DNA from: Planctomycetota bacterium
GTDB taxonomy: Bacteria > Planctomycetota > Planctomycetia > JALXBF01
Assembly (NCBI GenBank): GCA_026991575.1
Contig: JALXBF010000109.1
Coordinates: forward strand, 1-54,247
Direction of reading: 5' to 3'
DNA: 54,247 bases
Shown here: positions 12,453-44,925 of the stretch, in pieces
How positions within the stretch are numbered: the first letter of the stretch is position 1
How the letters are laid out: every line of letters begins with the position of its first letter
Position numbers and translations under genes: made by a program
The notes under the pieces: model-generated
Database searches by the model: none
Seen by the model: the letters and a program-made list of their open reading frames with translations, nothing else
Told to the model about the DNA's origin: nothing

Positions 12453-14396
12453 CTACAGCGACCGCAGGTACTCAACGAGGGCTTCCATGTCCTCGCCCTG
12501 AATGTGGGCATGTTCCTCGGCGTTGTGCATGTATACGGCGTCCGCCAGCGTCTTGGCCCGTCCGTCATGCAGCCAGGGACCGTCATCCCAGGTTCCCCTC
12601 AGATCCGGGACATCGTACTCGTCCGGCTGGATCCGATCGCCGTTCGGCAGAACGAGCACGTCGGGCCGACCCTTGCCCGTACCCGGCGCACGACGCACGA
12701 TCAGCACCTCGTCGTGCGGGAAGTGGCACTTGGTGCAGCCGGCAATGTAGTCGCCCTCGAAGATCGCACGGCCGCGTAACGCCTTCTCCGTTAGCTCGCC
12801 GTTTGGCTTGCGGAATGGGTTGGGGACCTTCGGAATCGATAGCACATAGGCTTCCAGCTTGGCGATTTCGTCCGGCAATGGCTTGCCACCACGCATGACC
12901 TGCTCGATCGTCGGGAGGCACTCGTCGTTGCCCACCGTTCGGGCTTCCCCTTGCCAGCGGAACGGGCTCGTACCTGCAATGCCACGCAGCGATTTGATGT
13001 CCTTGAACGTGCCCAGGCCATCATCGGCCAGGTCCCACGCCAGCCGGGCGTTGTGCCCTTCCGGGTGGCACGTCGCGCAGGCGAACTGATTACGGTAGCA
13101 GAACAGCGAGGAGTTAAACAGAATCTCGCCCTCACGCAATCTGCTCCTCTCCGACGGCCCAACAGCGAAGCGACGCACCAGCTCCGACTTGTCCCCCACA
13201 CGAACGGCAGCGACCGTCTCGTTCAGACGCTCGACGACGTAGAGCCAACCGTCTGCCCCCGCAAGGCCCTGCGGATTGGCCGCCACCGTCACGTACTGTA
13301 CCCTGTCCCTGGCAAGCGAGGTGCGGGGACCGGGGGCCGAACTTGCGGTCGGTAACGCATCAAACCGCCTCAACAGCCACGCTGCGTCGATAAGCAGCAC
13401 GCGGTCCGCCGCGCCACACGCCACCACCAACCACCGCCGACCGCCTCCGTCGCGGACCAACACCAGGTCGTACGGATTGGCGTAATAACGTTCAGTAGTG
13501 TCCAGCACGAAGGCACGCACTTGGGGCGATTCGCCCAATCGGATCAGGCCGATAGCGTGGTTCCATGGCGCAGGTTCACCGGCAGCCGGTACGTCGGGTC
13601 GCGGGATCGAGTACGCGAAGGCAATGGTGCGATCGTCCAGGTAAGCGATGCCGCGCAGGTTGGCAGCAGGCTTGACGGGGATCGTCTGCAGCACGTCCAA
13701 GCTGTCGGCCGCCAGCAGCACAACGTACCGCTGCAGACCTGCGGCGTCACAGGTAACGGCTAGCGTGTTGCCGTTGGCGCTGAGGGCCATGTGCCGCGGG
13801 TTATCGGGCAGTCGCCTGCGAGCCACGACGCGTTTGGTCACCGGGTCGATGGCGCAGATCGTTTCGTCCTTGCCCATACAGGTGACATAAACCCGACCGG
13901 TAACAGGGTGCGTGATCAGGTCGAACGGCTGGTTGTCCACGGCGACGTGACAGATCGGGGCCTGAGAGCGAAGATCGAGAACGGTTACCGTGTCCGAGTA
14001 GCGGTTGGCCACATAGAGCGTTTCTCCGTCGGGTGACAGCGCGATCCCGTTGGGGTAGTCCTGGGCCGGCAGTTCGGCCAAGACCGTGCCCTTGGCAGTG
14101 TCGAGCACGATGACCGCTCTGGCGTTACTTGCGGAGACGTACAGACGGCCGCGGTCTGGATCGACTGCCGCACGCAGCGGGGTCCGGTAACGCCGGTCCA
14201 GTTCCGTCGGGTCCGGGGCAACCGTACGGAATGTTTGCGGGACCGCCGAACGATCCTCAACGAGCACGAGTTCTGCTGGCCGAGGCGCAAGAAGCGAAGC
14301 CAGGTCCAGGTAGCCGCTGAGCTGTAGGCTGAGCGGAATGAGCAGCAGTACGAGCAGGATGGCGAGCAGAAGCAGACGTCGCTGCACGCGTATCAT
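12453..14396 (-). CDS. Beta-propeller/diheme cytochrome c fusion, membrane-anchored
   Basis: 647 residues. An N-terminal membrane helix (residues 7-28) anchors the protein or acts as signal. Residues 60-410 contain repeated YVTN/YncE-type beta-propeller blades (DRGRLYVSASN, DGETLYVANRYSDTVTVLD, GRVYVTCMGKDE). Residues 420-647 form a diheme CCP/MauG-like domain with CATCH at 440-444 and CTKCH at 554-558, plus PWLHDGRAKTL near the end. It is a clear paralogue of the protein at 43081-44925: both share LxWDLxDDGLG and GTxPFRWQGEA around the first heme. The ATG at 14396 has a GGGAG site; the frame extends upstream without one. The electron partner and substrate are unknown. Confidence 0.82.
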   Translation of the reverse strand: MIRVQRRLLLLAILLVLLLIPLSLQLSGYLDLASLLAPRPAELVLVEDRSAVPQTFRTVAPDPTELDRRYRTPLRAAVDPDRGRLYVSASNARAVIVLDTAKGTVLAELPAQDYPNGIALSPDGETLYVANRYSDTVTVLDLRSQAPICHVAVDNQPFDLITHPVTGRVYVTCMGKDETICAIDPVTKRVVARRRLPDNPRHMALSANGNTLAVTCDAAGLQRYVVLLAADSLDVLQTIPVKPAANLRGIAYLDDRTIAFAYSIPRPDVPAAGEPAPWNHAIGLIRLGESPQVRAFVLDTTERYYANPYDLVLVRDGGGRRWLVVACGAADRVLLIDAAWLLRRFDALPTASSAPGPRTSLARDRVQYVTVAANPQGLAGADGWLYVVERLNETVAAVRVGDKSELVRRFAVGPSERSRLREGEILFNSSLFCYRNQFACATCHPEGHNARLAWDLADDGLGTFKDIKSLRGIAGTSPFRWQGEARTVGNDECLPTIEQVMRGGKPLPDEIAKLEAYVLSIPKVPNPFRKPNGELTEKALRGRAIFEGDYIAGCTKCHFPHDEVLIVRRAPGTGKGRPDVLVLPNGDRIQPDEYDVPDLRGTWDDGPWLHDGRAKTLADAVYMHNAEEHAHIQGEDMEALVEYLRSL

Positions 14397-15104
14397 AGCC
14401 GGACTCCCGTTCTGCCAGCCCGACCGTGCACGTGGCCGTCTCGGTCGTCCCATCCACCCTATGCAGTTCTTGCTCAGTCGAGACGATCGCACGTATGGTC
14501 GGGCTCGCTACCGCTGTGCCACAGGCAGAAGAACGGACAGTACCGGCGGGCAGCTTGACGTTGCTACCGGTTTATACCCTTCGGTCCAGCGGCCAGTTCG
14601 GAGCGAGGACCAACGGACGACATGATGCAGACGCGGCGGGCCAGAAGCGACGGACGTGGCGTGGGTGCCAGGGGTACGAGTCTTTGCCGATGGTGCAGAC
14701 GCTGTCTGTGTGCGTCGTGAGGGGAGGAGACGGAAAAGCAAGCGGGCGGCGCGTGTGCTCATCGCTCGCCGCTGCGGCCCGAGGCGGGGGATTTGTCCCG
14801 GCTGCCGGTTTGCAGGGAAGCCAATCGCATCGGGCCGGGCCGGTAGCGCTCAGTCGGCGAAGCGTCCGCCGATGGGGTATCGTCGGTGATTCAGCCACGA
14901 CTTGCTCCGGGGCCGTGCATGTGGAAGCTTAGCTGGAGCCGGCCCCGGGGGCTCGGCCAGCAGCCGGGGCCGGCGGGGGCAGGGAAGCGACCCGGGGTTG
15001 GCCGGAGTTCGGCTTCACGCCGTCCCGTGTCTTCGGCTCATCCTCCTGGCGACTAGCTGCGAGGATAGCCGGCGCGATGCCCGCGCCTCTGCTGATGGGA
15101 CCTG
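14397..15104. other. Intergenic region, no gene seen
   Basis: About 700 bases between the start of the diheme fusion and the end of the coiled-coil gene. Short frames on both strands are low-complexity and mutually overlapping. It must contain the promoter for the minus-strand gene at 12453-14396, which I could not place with confidence. A strong hairpin lies at 14938-14974. Confidence 0.5.
14938..14974 (-). terminator. GC-rich hairpin downstream of coiled-coil gene
   Basis: Perfect 11-bp arms at 14938-14948 and 14964-14974 with a 15-base loop. It lies about 130 bases beyond the stop of the minus-strand gene ending at 15105. There is no T-tract, so it would be at most a non-canonical terminator or an RNA-stabilising structure. 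Confidence 0.35.
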
Positions 15105-36311: not shown

Positions 36312-36875
36312 ATGGCGGAGACAGGCCTGCAGCCTGTTGAGCAGCCGGAGCCCTGGCCCAGGAGACGACGCACCGTGCTGGCTCTGGCCCTAGCCGGCTG
36401 CGCGGTCATCCTGGCTGCGGCGGGATGGGTGGGCAGAAGGGTGACGGAGCGGCCCGAGTTCTGTGCCGCCTGTCACGAGATGAGACCGAGCTACGAGCAA
36501 TGGGTCTGCTCCTCCCACTACCAGCCCGAGCTGGGGGTCACGGCGACCTGCCAGGATTGCCACGTGGCCCCCGGCTTCACGGGCGCGTTGCAGAGCAAGC
36601 TCAGGGGACTGGTCCATGTCTACCGGCACCTGACCGAGCCATGGGATCCGATCCGATGGGAGGCCGACCGACTTCGGCGGCAACAGGTGGCCCGCGCGCA
36701 GATCGCTAACGAGGCATGCATCCGCTGTCATAAGCCGCCCGAAATAGCGCCTGCGCTGACCACCGTCGACCACACCAAGGTGGGCCCACGCAGCCGCTGC
36801 GTCGATTGCCACCGCAACCTGATGACGGGCCGTCGTCCGGCAATCCGTCGGCTGGCACACGCAATCGGAGAGTAG
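36312..36875 (+). CDS. NapC/NrfH-type tetraheme quinol dehydrogenase
   Basis: 187 residues: basic N-terminus, one membrane helix (residues 21-40), then a periplasmic domain with four CxxCH heme sites at 51-55, 80-84, 136-140 and 163-167. The first site reads CAACHEM; a Met two residues after the heme His is the axial ligand feature known from NrfH. Such proteins oxidise menaquinol and pass electrons to a periplasmic multiheme reductase. Here the partner is evidently the HAO-family cytochrome starting 3 bases after its stop. The arrangement parallels CycX-Hao of Campylobacterota. An AGGAGG site is upstream. Confidence 0.88.
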   Translation: MAETGLQPVEQPEPWPRRRRTVLALALAGCAVILAAAGWVGRRVTERPEFCAACHEMRPSYEQWVCSSHYQPELGVTATCQDCHVAPGFTGALQSKLRGLVHVYRHLTEPWDPIRWEADRLRRQQVARAQIANEACIRCHKPPEIAPALTTVDHTKVGPRSRCVDCHRNLMTGRRPAIRRLAHAIGE

Positions 36876-36878
36876 ACC

Positions 36879-38210
36879 ATGCTGCCGAACCGCCTCCGTC
36901 GCCGCCGCTGGAAGGCTGCCCTGGCTGGCTTCATCTTGCTGGTTCTTGCGGGGACCGTAGCGGCCCGTCTATGGCGCGGGGACATGGCGGCATCGTCGGT
37001 ATCGCCGCCGGCGCCGGCCGCTGGGCAGGCCGTCGTGCTCAAAGACGCCTACGTGCCGAAAGGGTTCACGGTCCACGAGGCTCAGGCCATCTTTGATGCG
37101 CTCGCCAGGCAGATGCCGCTGGCGGCGGATGCATTCCGCAGAAGCGCCCACTACCGCGAGGGTATGACCTGTGTGACCTGCCATCAGGAGCTGCGCTGGG
37201 ACCAGGCCAGCGGCTCGGTGGATGTCACTTCGCTGGGACGCGTTCCGCCGGAGCGGTGCGGCGAATGCCATGAGCAGGAGTACGACGGTTTCCGAAAGAG
37301 TCGACACTTCAAGGCGGTGACCGTCTTCCGGGAGGTGGTTCGCTACAAGGCGCTGGCCGGCTACCCGGCCATGCAGCAGCAGGGCTGCAATCGTTGCCAC
37401 GAACCGATCGGTCAGAGTTGTTCAGCCTGCCATCCGGCCCACCTCTTCGAGCCGCCCAGACCGCCAAAGGACGAGTTCGGCGGGTGCCAGCGGTGTCACC
37501 TGGGACCCGACCACCACCAGCTCGAATCGTACGTAGCCAGCGTGCACTACCAGGTCGCGCGCGCCCGGGGGGACGGGATCCCTAACTGCGTGTTCTGCCA
37601 CACTGCCGACGACAACAAGCACCACATCTTCCGGATCAAGGGCACCAAGGACCATGGCAGGACAGCGCTGATGGCCAAGTGCACACAGTGTCACACGGAG
37701 CAGTTCGCTCGCCGAGCATTCGAAGGCATCGACGCCATCAAACATGAAACGAACAAGGTTGTCGATGCAGCGCGGCAAATCATTCGGGATCTGTATGCCG
37801 ACGGGATCCTCAACCGCGTCTCTGGCTCACTGACCGACGAGCAGGGCCTGCCCGCTCTGAACCCAAACCTGACCGCTTACGACCAGCATGTCCATCCAAT
37901 CGAGAACTTGATGTTCCGCATGTTCAAATACGATGCCGTGGCAACGATTGCCGGTGCTCAGCACTTCAGCGCAGTACGCACGCACTGGTACGGCCACGCT
38001 CAGCTCATGGAGACTTACAACCGCATCCGGCAAATGGCGCAGGAGCTGCGGTTCATGCATGCGCTGAGCAAGAAACTGGGCGTGCCGCTGCCGTCGATTC
38101 CCGTCTACCGCTACACGCACGAGACCGGCCGCGAGCTGGACGAACCATGGCACGATCCGGTGGGCTACCGCAAGAGATTGGCGGAGTTCTACAGCGAGGT
38201 CAATGAGTGA
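36879..38210 (+). CDS. Hydroxylamine-oxidoreductase-family heptaheme cytochrome c
   Basis: 443 residues with an N-terminal membrane or signal helix (11-29). Seven CxxCH motifs occur at 98, 127, 170, 181, 203, 237 and 268, and there are no other cysteines. The block CQRCHLGPDHHQLESYVASVHY is diagnostic of the HAO family, and CTQCHTEQFARR...IIRDLYADGIL matches the last heme and following helix. Classical HAO has eight hemes, so one appears missing. With an NrfH-like partner it could work reductively on nitrite, NO or hydroxylamine, as proposed for Campylobacterota Hao. Whether the crosslinking Tyr of heme P460 exists cannot be settled by eye. GGAGAG precedes the ATG. Confidence 0.82.
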   Translation: MLPNRLRRRRWKAALAGFILLVLAGTVAARLWRGDMAASSVSPPAPAAGQAVVLKDAYVPKGFTVHEAQAIFDALARQMPLAADAFRRSAHYREGMTCVTCHQELRWDQASGSVDVTSLGRVPPERCGECHEQEYDGFRKSRHFKAVTVFREVVRYKALAGYPAMQQQGCNRCHEPIGQSCSACHPAHLFEPPRPPKDEFGGCQRCHLGPDHHQLESYVASVHYQVARARGDGIPNCVFCHTADDNKHHIFRIKGTKDHGRTALMAKCTQCHTEQFARRAFEGIDAIKHETNKVVDAARQIIRDLYADGILNRVSGSLTDEQGLPALNPNLTAYDQHVHPIENLMFRMFKYDAVATIAGAQHFSAVRTHWYGHAQLMETYNRIRQMAQELRFMHALSKKLGVPLPSIPVYRYTHETGRELDEPWHDPVGYRKRLAEFYSEVNE

Positions 38211-40213: not shown

Positions 40214-43027
40214 TCACCGGCTCAGGGCATAGGCCGGGCTGGTCAGTTCCGGGCCGGTGGTTATCCGGACGCGGATGCGCCAGGCACCGGAGAAGTTGTG
40301 CACCTTGAACAGCAGCTGGTTCTCTCCCTTGCGCAACCTTACCGGGATCACGTCCCAGTCATACCAGAAGGGCTGACGTACCAGCCGTTGGATCATGGGC
40401 TGACCGTTCACGAACAGCTCGAACATATCGTCGGCCGTAACACGCACCCAGACCGTCTGGTCTCGGTCAGAAGGCACGATGGCCAGCGCGTACGCAGTGG
40501 CGGGACCGGACGGTCTGAGCACCCGGCCCAGATTCAGGACGCCGGTCGGCTCATCCACGTGAACTTCTTGCCACCCGATCTGGCCGCTCGCTGCCGAGAA
40601 CTTTGCCCCCGGATCGAACCGCTGCTGCTCGGGACCGAAGCGGGTGCGGATGCCGGCTGCGCCACGGTTGTCGAACGGGCCGCAGACGTACCAATCCCTC
40701 ACTTCGCCGGCATTGTCGGTGAGAGTGTGGACGTAGCGGGCAATCAGCTCCACCTCTTCGTCTTTGATCCAGTTCCTGGCCTTTTGCTGCATGTTCCGCA
40801 CGGTCTCGAGCCATTTCGCCATGCTGCGCCTGAGCCCCAGGAACTTCCGAAGGCCATGACACCGCGTGCAGCGCACTTCGGTGGCCTGCTTGCCGTCGGT
40901 GAAGGTGATCTTTGCGTAGTCGGGCTGCCTAGCGCGCCACTGCTGAGCGAGCGCCGCGCTCTGCTTGCGGTTGTAGCCCGGGTACGGGTCTGGACCGGGG
41001 ATGTTGTCCCATTGAGCTCCGAGGTCGATCCACAGAGCGAACAGACGTTTCTCTTCGTCGGTGAGCGGCTCGTCAGGCGGACATTGATTGACTTCGGTGT
41101 TGTACTCGAACGAGTACCCGTACAGCCGCCAGATGAGTGGGCTCTTGCGCGCAAAGCCCGGGTAGATGTACTTGCCGGTGCGGTAGTCGGCCGGGGCACA
41201 CAAGCTTAAGTACGACTTGCTGAAGAACGCCCCGTTGATCTCGTAGGCGCGGTCGGGCATGGTGACGCGCGGGATGAACACGAGCTTGTCACCACCGGAA
41301 AGATCCAGCCCCCCTTCGGCTTTCTTCTCGTTATGGCATCGCACGCACTTGCGTTCGATAATCGGGATCAGGTCGCGGCGGAAGTCGACCGTTTTTCGGT
41401 CTTCGGGCTTGGTTACAAGATCGACTGGTCCGGCGGTGGCGGCCAGCGGCACGCGGTCCAGGAGCGGCGGCCGACTTCGCCGCTCGTGGCAGCCGACACA
41501 GGTGCGATGCTCTCCGGGCCGGACCCAGATCCAGGTGAGCGCATCCTGCAGTGCCATGCCGTTCTCGTCAAGCACCTGAAGATGCAGCACCGTATCGGCT
41601 GGTACCTTGACGTAGAACGAACCGTCGCTGGCCACGGGCGCCTCGCCCACAACCCGCTTCTGTTCGAAGTTGCTGATGGAGTTGGTCGATGAGCCGAAGG
41701 AGGAGAAGCCGATGCCGGGCAGCAGCGTGCGGAAGGTGTCGTTGTCGTCCTCGACACCGAAGCCCTCGATGATCCGGACCCGCTTGATCTGCCCCGGCTT
41801 GATGAACGCTTCCTTGTCCGTCTGACCGATGTAGGCGTTCAGGCACAGCAGCGTTCCCCAGTTCTGATGGCGGGCGATGTTGTGGTCGGGGATGATTGGT
41901 GGTTTGGGCCGAGCTTCCACATAGATCGGGTTCAGTGCCTGGTAGTTCGGGTCGTTGTACACGGGCGCCCCTCGCTTGCGGGCCTCAATATCGAACCAGT
42001 AGATGCCAAACTGCGCCTTGGGCCCCTCAGGGTTGCGGTAGCCGCTCCAGCAGGGCGGCGGTGACCAGCAGACCAGCAGGCGGCCGTCACGGGTCGGGTA
42101 CGGATCGCGATAGCGGCCCCCGGGAGTGTTCGGCCCGTACAGGCGGACGTCAGGAGTCAGATTGACCATGGCCTTGCGATCGTCCGGGTCGCCCGGGGTC
42201 AGTAGCGCGAGCGCGCCGCCGCCGTAGGCATGGTGGAAGACGCTTTCGATGTACACGATCCGCCCGTCGGGCAGCTCGCGCTGTTTCCACCGGAAGCCGC
42301 CGCGATGGTTGCCATAGAAGTCGATGAACTCGGTGCCGTCCGGGTTCATCGTGAACAGAGCGGATGCACCAGAGGTGTGGAACCGCATGCCATGATGTTG
42401 CCAGCTCTGAAACAGCACCCGCCCGTCGCTGAGTACGATGAACTCCGAGTCGGAGCTGAGGTTGAAGGAGATCTGTTCCACGTTGCTACCGTCCGGATCA
42501 CAGCGGTGGACTAGCCGGGCATAGTCGCGGTCATATTCATCCCGCCGCTTGTGCGGATCCATGGCCACATGGCGTGTGGAGCTGAAGATGATCCGGCCGT
42601 CAGGCAGGTAGTACGGCGAGCAGGCGTCGGCCATGCCGCGCGTGATCTGTCGTTTGTTCTTGCCGTCCAGGTCCATCTCCCAGATTTCCCAGCCATCCTG
42701 TGGCGTGCGTCGCCCGGAGAAGATGATCTTGGTGCCGTCGTAGCTGAGCTCCGGTTCGTCGGCACCGTAGAACTCCGGTGTCAACACCGTCAGCTTCCCG
42801 TCCGGGCGGGGGGGCGAGAGCTTCACGATCTCCATTCCGGGCACATGCGCAGACTGCCCGAAGTGGTACATGAACGGCTCGTAGTGGATGCCGGGCCGTC
42901 CGTTCGGACGATTCTTGATCCGCACGAAGATGATCGCCCCTTCGTCCCGGTTCACCTCTTCGGCGTAACTGGCAGGGACGGCCACGATGGCCGCGACGAA
43001 AGGCAGAACTGCTAACCACCACTTCAT
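40214..43027 (-). CDS. Triheme beta-propeller cytochrome, hydrazine-synthase-alpha-like
   Basis: 937 residues with a signal peptide (1-22). Residues 25-350 carry WD40/TolB-like propeller blades (ELSYDGTKIIFSGRR, YLPDGRIIFSSTR, VLSDGRVLFQSW, RELPDGRIVYIES). Heme motifs are CVGCH at 510-514, CVRCH at 561-565 and CTRCH at 720-724. Residues 775-930 form a beta-sandwich (DWYVCGPFDNRG...ADDMFELFVNG). A propeller followed by heme domains recalls the alpha subunit of anammox hydrazine synthase, whose middle domain is found in many planctomycete proteins. In the anammox enzyme, as I recall, a Tyr four residues past the first heme His binds iron; here it is S518. AAGGAG precedes the ATG. The upstream operon partner ends 53 bases before it. 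Confidence 0.75.
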   Translation of the reverse strand: MKWWLAVLPFVAAIVAVPASYAEEVNRDEGAIIFVRIKNRPNGRPGIHYEPFMYHFGQSAHVPGMEIVKLSPPRPDGKLTVLTPEFYGADEPELSYDGTKIIFSGRRTPQDGWEIWEMDLDGKNKRQITRGMADACSPYYLPDGRIIFSSTRHVAMDPHKRRDEYDRDYARLVHRCDPDGSNVEQISFNLSSDSEFIVLSDGRVLFQSWQHHGMRFHTSGASALFTMNPDGTEFIDFYGNHRGGFRWKQRELPDGRIVYIESVFHHAYGGGALALLTPGDPDDRKAMVNLTPDVRLYGPNTPGGRYRDPYPTRDGRLLVCWSPPPCWSGYRNPEGPKAQFGIYWFDIEARKRGAPVYNDPNYQALNPIYVEARPKPPIIPDHNIARHQNWGTLLCLNAYIGQTDKEAFIKPGQIKRVRIIEGFGVEDDNDTFRTLLPGIGFSSFGSSTNSISNFEQKRVVGEAPVASDGSFYVKVPADTVLHLQVLDENGMALQDALTWIWVRPGEHRTCVGCHERRSRPPLLDRVPLAATAGPVDLVTKPEDRKTVDFRRDLIPIIERKCVRCHNEKKAEGGLDLSGGDKLVFIPRVTMPDRAYEINGAFFSKSYLSLCAPADYRTGKYIYPGFARKSPLIWRLYGYSFEYNTEVNQCPPDEPLTDEEKRLFALWIDLGAQWDNIPGPDPYPGYNRKQSAALAQQWRARQPDYAKITFTDGKQATEVRCTRCHGLRKFLGLRRSMAKWLETVRNMQQKARNWIKDEEVELIARYVHTLTDNAGEVRDWYVCGPFDNRGAAGIRTRFGPEQQRFDPGAKFSAASGQIGWQEVHVDEPTGVLNLGRVLRPSGPATAYALAIVPSDRDQTVWVRVTADDMFELFVNGQPMIQRLVRQPFWYDWDVIPVRLRKGENQLLFKVHNFSGAWRIRVRITTGPELTSPAYALSR

Positions 43028-43080
43028 GGCTGTCGTCTCCTTGTAACGGTGCTGGCCACGAGCGCGGGCAGGCGGCGGAC

Positions 43081-44925
43081 TCAGAGGGAAAGCAGGTAGG
43101 CAATCAGGTCCGAGAGCTCTTGCTCGGTCAGCTGCGACGTCTTGCCGTGCTTGTCCTCAGGGTTGTACTTGGTGAAGACCTCACGAAGCGTTCGCGCACG
43201 GCCGTCGTGCAGGTAGGGGGGGCTGTCCCAGATGCCCACCAGCTGCGGGACGTCGAACTGAGTGGGGTAGATCGTGTTGCCGGAAGGCAACTTCAGCGGA
43301 GCGTACCGCCCCTTACCGGTGCCCACGTCGCGCCGCTTGCGGTTCGTGAACTTCGGCCCGCTATGGCACTTGATGCAGCGAGCCTTCCCTTCGAAGATCT
43401 GCTTGCCGCGGCGAGCCGCCTCGCTCAGCGAGCCGTCCGGCATGCGATACGGATTCGGTACCAGCGGCACGGAGCGGACATAGCTTTCCAGCGCCTCCAG
43501 ATCGGCCGGCGACAGGGGGCTCCCGCGCATGGCGAGCGTCACCGTCGGCCCGCACTCATTCGCGCCGATTTCGGCTGCCTCGCCTTGCCAGCGGAACGGA
43601 CCGGTACCGTCCACACCGCGGAAGCTCCGGATGTTCTTGACGTTGCCCAGCCCGTCGTCTTCCAGGTCCCAGCTCAGACCGGTCGTGTGTCCTTCCGGAT
43701 GGCAGCTCGCACAGGAAAACTGACGCTGGAAGCAGAGCGTCGCCGAGTTGTACAGGATCTCGCCACGCCGACGCATCGTGATCCTGGCAGTTTCGCCCAC
43801 CGGGATGCTCGTGCCCACGGTCAGGTGCCCGAGGTCGATGACGGAGAGCGTGTCGGCGAGCCGGTTGGCCACCACCGCCACATCGGCTCGCGGCACCAGC
43901 GCGATGCCATACGGATTGCGCCCCACCGGGATCACCGCCAGCCGATACGGCCGGCTCGCTCCAAGCGGCACATAGCCGCGTTGCCCCTTCAGCCTGCTTG
44001 CTTCCGCCAACAGCCGAGGCAGGTCATACACCAACACCTCATCAACGCCGGCGCAGACCACAAACAACCGACGGCCCTCCGGACCGACGGCTAGCCCGTA
44101 CGGGTTGGCGAAGTAGCGGTGTGCCTCGTCCAGGATCACAGTCTGAACCTGGTCCTTGGAGGCCGTGTACCGGATGAAGCTGATCGCGTTGTTGTTCACC
44201 CAGCCCTGGCGAACCTGCGTCAACGGCACAAACGGCTTGGGAATCAAGTGGGCCACGGCAAGAACGCCGGGGGCTACCTCGATCAGATCCCGTAGGTTGC
44301 TGGCTGGCCGAAGCTCGAAGCGGCCGACGATCTTGCCGCTGGCCAGCTCGATCTGCACCACGGGCCTGCTCAGGTCGTAGGCGTCGCAAGCGACAAACAG
44401 GTACCGACCATCCCGGCTGACGGCCAGGTGTCGCGGATTCTGGGCCACGCTGATGCGACGCAGCAGCGTGCGCTGTGCCACGTCGATTTCCACGACCACT
44501 TCGTCCTTGCCCATGCAGCTAACCCAGAGCCGATCACGCCCGGTCCACTCCACGTCGTACGGTTGGTTCGGCACCGGCACGGTTGCGGCGACCTGGAGGT
44601 CGGGCAGCGTAAACAGGTAGAGCTCGTCGCTGTAGCGACACGCGACCGCGGCCAGCTTGCCGTCGGCTCGTACAGCAACGCCCGTCGGCTCGCGCCCCAC
44701 AGGCGTCTCCCGCACGACCTGGCCGCCGTCCAGGTCAACCAGGCTGACGGAGTTGCCCTGGTGGTTGGTGACGACTACCAGCGCTGTGCCCGGAACGGCA
44801 GCGACCTGAAGCGGCGATCGATAGTGGGGCTGATCGGCCGGCGAGGCGGTAGTGCTGGGCGCCAGGAGCAGGAGCACCGGTAGCAGGAAGAGCAATTGCG
44901 TACGAGGCTGCTGCTTGGCGTGCAT
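43081..44925 (-). CDS. Beta-propeller/diheme peroxidase fusion, hydrazine-synthase-beta-gamma-like
   Basis: 614 residues from ATG 44925 (GGAGG site); the longer open frame lacks a signal peptide. A signal peptide (10-27) is followed by a YVTN-type seven-bladed propeller (about 35-375) and a diheme CCP/MauG-like domain (385-614) with CASCH at 405-409 and CIKCH at 517-521, and PPYLHDGRARTLREV near the end. In some anammox bacteria the beta (propeller) and gamma (diheme peroxidase-like) subunits of hydrazine synthase are fused in this order. It is first in a two-gene unit with the triheme protein downstream, and is paralogous to 12453-14396. Related fusions of other function are common in planctomycetes, so catalysis is not implied. 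Confidence 0.78.
   Translation of the reverse strand: MHAKQQPRTQLLFLLPVLLLLAPSTTASPADQPHYRSPLQVAAVPGTALVVVTNHQGNSVSLVDLDGGQVVRETPVGREPTGVAVRADGKLAAVACRYSDELYLFTLPDLQVAATVPVPNQPYDVEWTGRDRLWVSCMGKDEVVVEIDVAQRTLLRRISVAQNPRHLAVSRDGRYLFVACDAYDLSRPVVQIELASGKIVGRFELRPASNLRDLIEVAPGVLAVAHLIPKPFVPLTQVRQGWVNNNAISFIRYTASKDQVQTVILDEAHRYFANPYGLAVGPEGRRLFVVCAGVDEVLVYDLPRLLAEASRLKGQRGYVPLGASRPYRLAVIPVGRNPYGIALVPRADVAVVANRLADTLSVIDLGHLTVGTSIPVGETARITMRRRGEILYNSATLCFQRQFSCASCHPEGHTTGLSWDLEDDGLGNVKNIRSFRGVDGTGPFRWQGEAAEIGANECGPTVTLAMRGSPLSPADLEALESYVRSVPLVPNPYRMPDGSLSEAARRGKQIFEGKARCIKCHSGPKFTNRKRRDVGTGKGRYAPLKLPSGNTIYPTQFDVPQLVGIWDSPPYLHDGRARTLREVFTKYNPEDKHGKTSQLTEQELSDLIAYLLSL

Follow-up and report, generated by a model that had tools for sequence, protein, structure and literature searches.

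The window analysed here, the whole 54,247-nucleotide stretch of DNA from a Planctomycetota bacterium, contains two adjacent minus-strand genes whose products resemble the subunits of hydrazine synthase (HZS). The upstream gene (43081–44925) encodes a fused beta-gamma-type protein of 614 amino acids with two hemes, P0002, and the downstream gene (40214–43027), 53 nt away, encodes an alpha-type protein of 937 amino acids with three hemes, P0001; both were identified from open-reading-frame calls together with sequence and structure matches, and all features of the pair described below lie on the minus strand. P0002 begins with a signal-like N-terminus followed by a 7-bladed, YncE-like propeller, of which residues 37–363 (43837–44817) align to HZS beta (5c2v_B), and ends in a diheme CCP/MauG-like domain that matches the MauG and MbnH families (8e-14 and 7e-11). 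Its CxxCH sites at residues 405 and 517 were assigned by motif and alignment to heme gamma-I (CASCH405–409, 43699–43713) and heme gamma-II (CIKCH517–521, 43363–43377). P0001 consists of a propeller, an HZS_alpha middle domain (PF18582, 94 bits against a cut-off of 26.6), three CxxCH sites at residues 510, 561, and 720, and a C-terminal beta-sandwich. The first two sites correspond by motif and alignment to heme alpha-I (CVGCH510–514, 41486–41500) and heme alpha-II (CVRCH561–565, 41333–41347), and the third (CTRCH720–724, 40856–40870) lies in a C-terminal cytochrome c domain with a weak SorB-like match (E 0.006). The sandwich, at about residues 775–930 (40238–40705), is supported by predicted strands. 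It is a common planctomycete add-on, since dozens of further proteins from related genomes contain a match to this region.

The best PDB relatives of the pair by sequence (phmmer) were HZS alpha (7.3e-64), gamma (7.2e-39), and beta (3.2e-34). In Foldseek searches with the predicted models, the top match of P0002 was the HZS beta propeller, 5c2v_B (E 5.6e-29, TM 0.87 on target), and those of P0001 were the HZS alpha chains 5c2v_D (4.1e-42) and 5c2v_A (9.0e-42), with a TM of 0.67 on target. This similarity is far beyond chance, and the common ancestry of the pair with HZS alpha and beta-gamma is certain. A sequence-only reading of this DNA had described a propeller fused to a diheme peroxidase-like domain, a propeller with three heme motifs, an extra third heme and beta-sandwich, and a resemblance of the whole unit to HZS beta-gamma plus alpha, all of which agree with these assignments.

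Heme-site residues and the HAO-like neighbour

Residue roles in HZS were taken from published descriptions (PMC12758564, PMC12607021) and mapped onto the pair by alignment. The proximal ligand of heme alpha-I, alpha-Tyr591, aligns with Ser518 of P0001 (41474–41476), exactly the substitution named in the sequence-only reading, and is Thr in the four orthologues described below; in the alignment, P0001 has no counterpart of the long HZS insert after heme alpha-I. In the gamma domain, gamma-His144 is replaced by Trp446 (43588–43590), a CCP/MauG-type residue at a position whose role is given in PMC12758564, and gamma-Asp168 is replaced by Thr461. By the same alignment, gamma-Cys165, which makes a third covalent bond to heme gamma-I in HZS, is kept as Cys458 (43552–43554) in 5/5 orthologues, and the corresponding bond is predicted here. 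This region was modelled poorly, with pLDDT below 50 for residues 412–467, and the modelled gamma-I pocket was set aside as evidence because its confidence was too low. The loop that holds the distal ligand of heme alpha-II in HZS, His772, aligns with a loop of P0001 that has no His and carries Cys649 (41081–41083); it reads MPP in most other homologues and CPP in 5/5 members of the window group, Cys649 being invariant among them. From the alignment, Cys649 is probably a ligand of heme alpha-II, with a predicted His/Cys ligation. SoxAX, TsdA, and DsrJ are examples of sulfur enzymes with ligation of this type. The position of alpha-Cys303 is His241 in P0001 and His or Gln in the orthologues, and is not diagnostic, since it also varies among true anammox genera.

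Profile searches confirmed homology to all three subunits, with the equivalog cut-offs missed. P0001 scored 288 bits against NCBIfam NF052339 (alpha, cut-off 800) and P0002 scored 218 bits against NF052342 (beta-gamma fusion, cut-off 1250), and no match to hydrazine dehydrogenase (NF052343) above cut-off was found in five genomes, the best reaching 82 bits against 900. Because the catalytic residues are gone and the scores fall far under the equivalog cut-offs, the pair is, as judged from sequence, an HZS homologue and not a hydrazine synthase. Identity as hydrazine synthase, considered in the sequence-only reading, therefore falls away, and an anammox identity was ruled out by the residues, the cut-offs, and the missing hydrazine dehydrogenase match. 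The fallback offered in that reading, namely an ancestral or repurposed enzyme with a different substrate, is consistent with both the residues and the operon context.

An NrfH/NapC-like tetraheme gene (36312–36875, plus strand), recognized by family match and heme motifs, and an HAO-family gene with seven CxxCH motifs (36879–38210, plus strand; PDB HAO match 1.8e-16) together resemble quinol-linked reductive HAO pairs. The sequence-only reading had placed an HAO-family cytochrome next to the HZS-like pair; the gene exists, but it is on the opposite strand with another gene in between, and the window HAO-like protein was absent from all eight homologue genomes searched. It is thus not part of a conserved system, and the HAO/NrfH neighbourhood was ruled out as functional context. 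HAO-family matches are present in the window genome, where another such gene lies at G000:C114, and in two of the orthologue genomes (G424 and G425), with none in the other two (G426 and G626).

Relatives and the upstream sulfite reductase paralogue

A scan of GTDB representative genomes for conserved motifs of the HZS alpha C-terminus returned three close alpha orthologues, in metagenome-assembled genomes labelled Pirellulaceae or Planctomycetaceae, as well as remoter alphas in Phycisphaerae and other planctomycetes (41–43% identity), FG-GAP-linked clusters of other phyla, and anammox genes. A fourth close orthologue, that of G626, was added by a later class-wide search. These four are 58–65% identical to the window alpha. 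Only G626 and the window genome carry an alpha gene at this level among 398 genomes of the class, which makes the lineage a rare one. Loci L103–L105 and L152 were rejected as full orthologues, as their beta-gamma falls in another clade without equivalents of Trp446 and Cys458. A separate observation from a Scalindua-type genome (L068, G408) is an hzsA copy above cut-off with three in-frame stops (2 TGA, 1 TAG), which points either to an error in the assembly or to decay of the gene.

The alpha tree unites the window clade and the FG-GAP homologues with anammox HzsA in one group (100/100), from which the generic planctomycete HZS_alpha proteins are separate. Inside this group, anammox joins the FG-GAP homologues (99/98), and the alternative topology uniting anammox with the window clade was only marginally rejected (AU p 0.049); given the long anammox stem, the branching of anammox within the group is uncertain. 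In the beta-gamma tree, P0002, its orthologues, and a paralogue at 12453–14492 form a clade (99) that joins anammox and the FG-GAP homologues with support of 89. Ranked by pairwise score, the window alpha belongs with the closest relatives that HzsA has outside anammox. A claim that it is the closest held among the first 392 sampled planctomycetes and not overall, since a Latescibacterota FG-GAP-type alpha scored 281 bits against Kuenenia HzsA and the window alpha 252 bits.

The beta-gamma and alpha genes are adjacent in all four close orthologues, and thus in 5/5 members with the window included, down to 50% beta-gamma identity, and the order in each is beta-gamma followed by alpha, which is the anammox gene order. 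The sequence-only reading had considered such adjacency unusual outside anammox, which is not supported, as similar pairs have been published for several phyla and were recovered here. The paralogue at 12453–14492 (minus strand) encodes a 679-residue beta-gamma-like protein, 41% identical to P0002, with a membrane-anchor-like N-terminus; it has no alpha partner alongside and has retained both the Trp and the Cys found in the gamma-I pocket. A second, generic-type pair, with alpha before beta-gamma, is found on contig C65 of the window genome (L226, 4207–8681), and this genome carries further beta-gamma-like genes.

Directly upstream of the pair in 4/4 close orthologues (G426/L102, G424/L224, G425, and G626/L235) is a gene for a divergent siroheme sulfite reductase (SiR) paralogue of the CysI type, in an operon-like arrangement with the pair; in G425, the cluster is divided by a contig break between L225 and L101. 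This pattern was first noticed in three orthologues and was also present in G626/L235, which was retrieved afterwards. The L102 copy passes PRK13504 (544 bits versus 457) and scores only about 150 bits against NirA. Taking the L102 copy as reference, the cluster SiRs of the other three genomes are 45–55% identical to it, and the second, ordinary SiR copies of the orthologue genomes about 38%. The siroheme/4Fe-4S cysteines and a Lys-x-Lys motif, which is usually absent from nitrite reductases, are kept in 4/4 cluster SiRs. The Arg of GDVxRNV, which by our count corresponds to E. coli CysI Arg153, is Cys in three cluster SiRs and Gly in one, and Arg in every second SiR copy examined. Lack of this sulfite-binding arginine weakens a plain sulfite reading.

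The cluster SiR has no visible signal peptide and the beta-gamma/alpha pair looks exported, so that the two would not meet directly. A search of the window genome for the cluster SiR gave no orthologue, the best matches being NirA-like (27–28%); the functional partner would thus be lacking in precisely this genome, unless it is encoded in the roughly 2% that the assembly does not cover. In G425, the cluster SiR also divergently adjoins a generic beta-gamma/alpha pair (L225, 2–6444), and the two HZS-like pairs may be neighbours there. A tryptophan-halogenase-like flavoprotein is encoded near the SiR-betagamma-alpha cluster in two genomes (L224, 9858–11192, minus strand; L225, 6469–7716, plus strand).

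Proposed function of the pair

Comparison of sequence and structure establishes common ancestry with HZS, a shared domain architecture, and an anammox-like gene order, together with loss of the HZS-specific catalytic residues. The pair most likely encodes an exported, periplasmic HZS-fold redox complex, composed of alpha and a fused beta-gamma with five c-type hemes, in a planctomycete without evidence of anammox. We consider it reasonably probable that this complex is a redox enzyme for a small sulfur or nitrogen oxyanion and not a hydrazine synthase. The likeliest substrate class would be a sulfur oxyanion of the sulfite or thiosulfate type; nitrite, NO, or hydroxylamine would come next, and sulfur specifically is a tentative assignment. 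Sulfur is indicated, each time weakly, by the SiR paralogue, by the Cys that is invariant in the ligand loop of heme alpha-II, and by the SorB-like third heme domain, while the HZS heritage indicates nitrogen, and the Trp at gamma-I permits peroxide chemistry, to which the gamma-I pocket would be equally suited. In the proposed mechanism, heme gamma-I, with His409 as proximal ligand and Trp446 and Cys458 close by, would activate either a small inorganic oxyanion or the product of its reduction, and the intermediate would travel along the propeller to heme alpha-I, which would have an ordinary His ligand in place of the Tyr/Zn arrangement. The alpha hemes may then complete the chemistry or carry electrons, which would enter or leave via heme gamma-II, the probably His/Cys-ligated heme alpha-II, and the extra cytochrome c domain.

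The nitrogen branch of this explanation can be weighed separately, as a reductive enzyme for NO, nitrite, or hydroxylamine that would carry out the HZS gamma half-reaction with no N–N bond formed; nitrite or hydroxylamine would then be the substrate of the SiR paralogue. Siroheme reductases of the SiR type can also accept nitrite, and the HAO-family matches, present in the window genome as well as in G424 and G425, would suit such a role. Heme gamma-I of HZS binds NO and has been proposed to reduce it (PMC12607021). The cluster SiR, however, matches sulfite reductase far better than NirA and retains its Lys-x-Lys motif, and G426 and G626 have no HAO-family match; we regard this branch as possible but on the whole unlikely. 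Somewhat less likely again is a peroxide-dependent enzyme, in which the MauG/CCP-like domain would use H2O2 on a protein or small-molecule substrate held by alpha. Trp446 occupies the conserved tryptophan position of CCP and MauG (PMC12758564) and the MauG and MbnH family matches point the same way, but the conserved Cys458 suggests a triple-linked heme of the HZS type, and the conserved upstream SiR gene would be left unexplained. That these are generic planctomycete propeller-cytochromes with an incidental pairing is very improbable: planctomycetes commonly encode beta-gamma-like and HZS_alpha-like proteins, the window genome with its C65 pair and additional beta-gamma-like genes included, but the adjacency kept in every member largely refutes such a reading, and the tree separates the alpha from the generic clade with full support. 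That the pair is a working hydrazine synthase of an anammox planctomycete so far overlooked, for which the three homologous subunits, their order, Cys458, and the HAO-family genes nearby and at G000:C114 might speak, is extremely improbable given scores of 288 of 800 and 218 of 1250 bits, the changes of Tyr591 to Ser518, His144 to Trp446, and Asp168 to Thr461, the missing His772 and heme alpha-I insert, and the five genomes in which no hydrazine dehydrogenase match reached the cut-off.

A bolder reading is an enzyme system not yet described, in which the HZS-fold periplasmic complex and a repurposed siroheme reductase would jointly form or cleave a bond between inorganic sulfur and/or nitrogen species of small size. 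We think this quite unlikely; if true, such a bond-forming or bond-breaking system would reveal the chemistry that gave rise to hydrazine synthase.

Comparison with known systems

Hydrazine synthase was long believed to have no relatives, and we know of no published HZS homologue with a known function. The functional clue provided by the present lineage is a gene order with a divergent SiR, conserved across four genomes despite 45–55% SiR identity, which hints at the role of such enzymes before anammox evolved. The questions of HZS-like function and of HZS origin thereby become testable with a defined gene set and substrates. These results also caution that hzs-like matches in planctomycete genomes should not be taken as anammox.

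HZS-like pairs outside anammox are already known (Suarez et al. 2023, PMC10732223; Hagglund et al. 2025, PMC12758564). Features that we did not find in those two accounts are a lineage that combines anammox gene order with the lack of an FG-GAP gene, which could not be matched to the published clades and for which some overlap with clade IV is still conceivable, the upstream SiR gene with an altered active site, and the invariant Cys.

Compared with CysI and other SiRs, the upstream gene of L102 passes PRK13504 and the cluster and siroheme cysteines are present in all four copies; the cluster SiR differs in being a second, divergent paralogue with Cys or Gly at the Arg153 equivalent, and in being absent from the window genome. 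In Phycisphaerae UBA1845, Suarez et al. described a fused hzsBC-like gene beside an hzsA-like gene, proposing possible anammox and assigning copies of low similarity to a broader family of enzymes (PMC10732223). The window pair shares this adjacency, while in UBA1845, compared by description, hzsA lies immediately upstream of hzsBC and the window order is reversed.

Hagglund et al. reported HZS-like pairs from several phyla outside anammox, described clades I–III, and concluded from missing residues that such pairs are unable to make hydrazine (PMC12758564). The window pair fits the description of this family, with a co-located alpha and fused beta-gamma in which HZS residues are missing. With clades I–III it shares this composition, a Trp at gamma-144, the lack of Tyr591, and membership of a common alpha-tree supergroup. 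In those clades, alpha precedes beta-gamma, an FG-GAP gene lies between them in I and II, and the beta-gamma of clade I carries 8 additional hemes (PMC12758564), whereas the window group has beta-gamma before alpha with no gene between and no FG-GAP gene, the window beta-gamma has 2 hemes, and an SiR gene lies upstream in the orthologues. The FG-GAP/CRTAC1-linked clusters recovered here were from Latescibacterota, KSB1, Omnitrophota, Neomarinimicrobiota, Gemmatimonadota, Calditrichota, and Acidobacteriota. One genome, probably a Thermogutta (G010), suggests that clade IV of Hagglund et al. may be the generic group, outside which the window alpha falls.

Compared with HzsABC of anammox bacteria (PDB 5C2V), the window pair lacks equivalents of Tyr591, His144, Asp168, and His772 and the heme alpha-I insert, scores far below the equivalog cut-offs, and has an extra third heme and beta-sandwich in alpha. 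It shares with HzsABC the alpha propeller, the middle domain, hemes alpha-I and alpha-II, the beta propeller, the diheme CCP-like gamma with its Cys165 equivalent, and the beta-gamma-alpha order, and its beta and gamma are fused as in some Scalindua.
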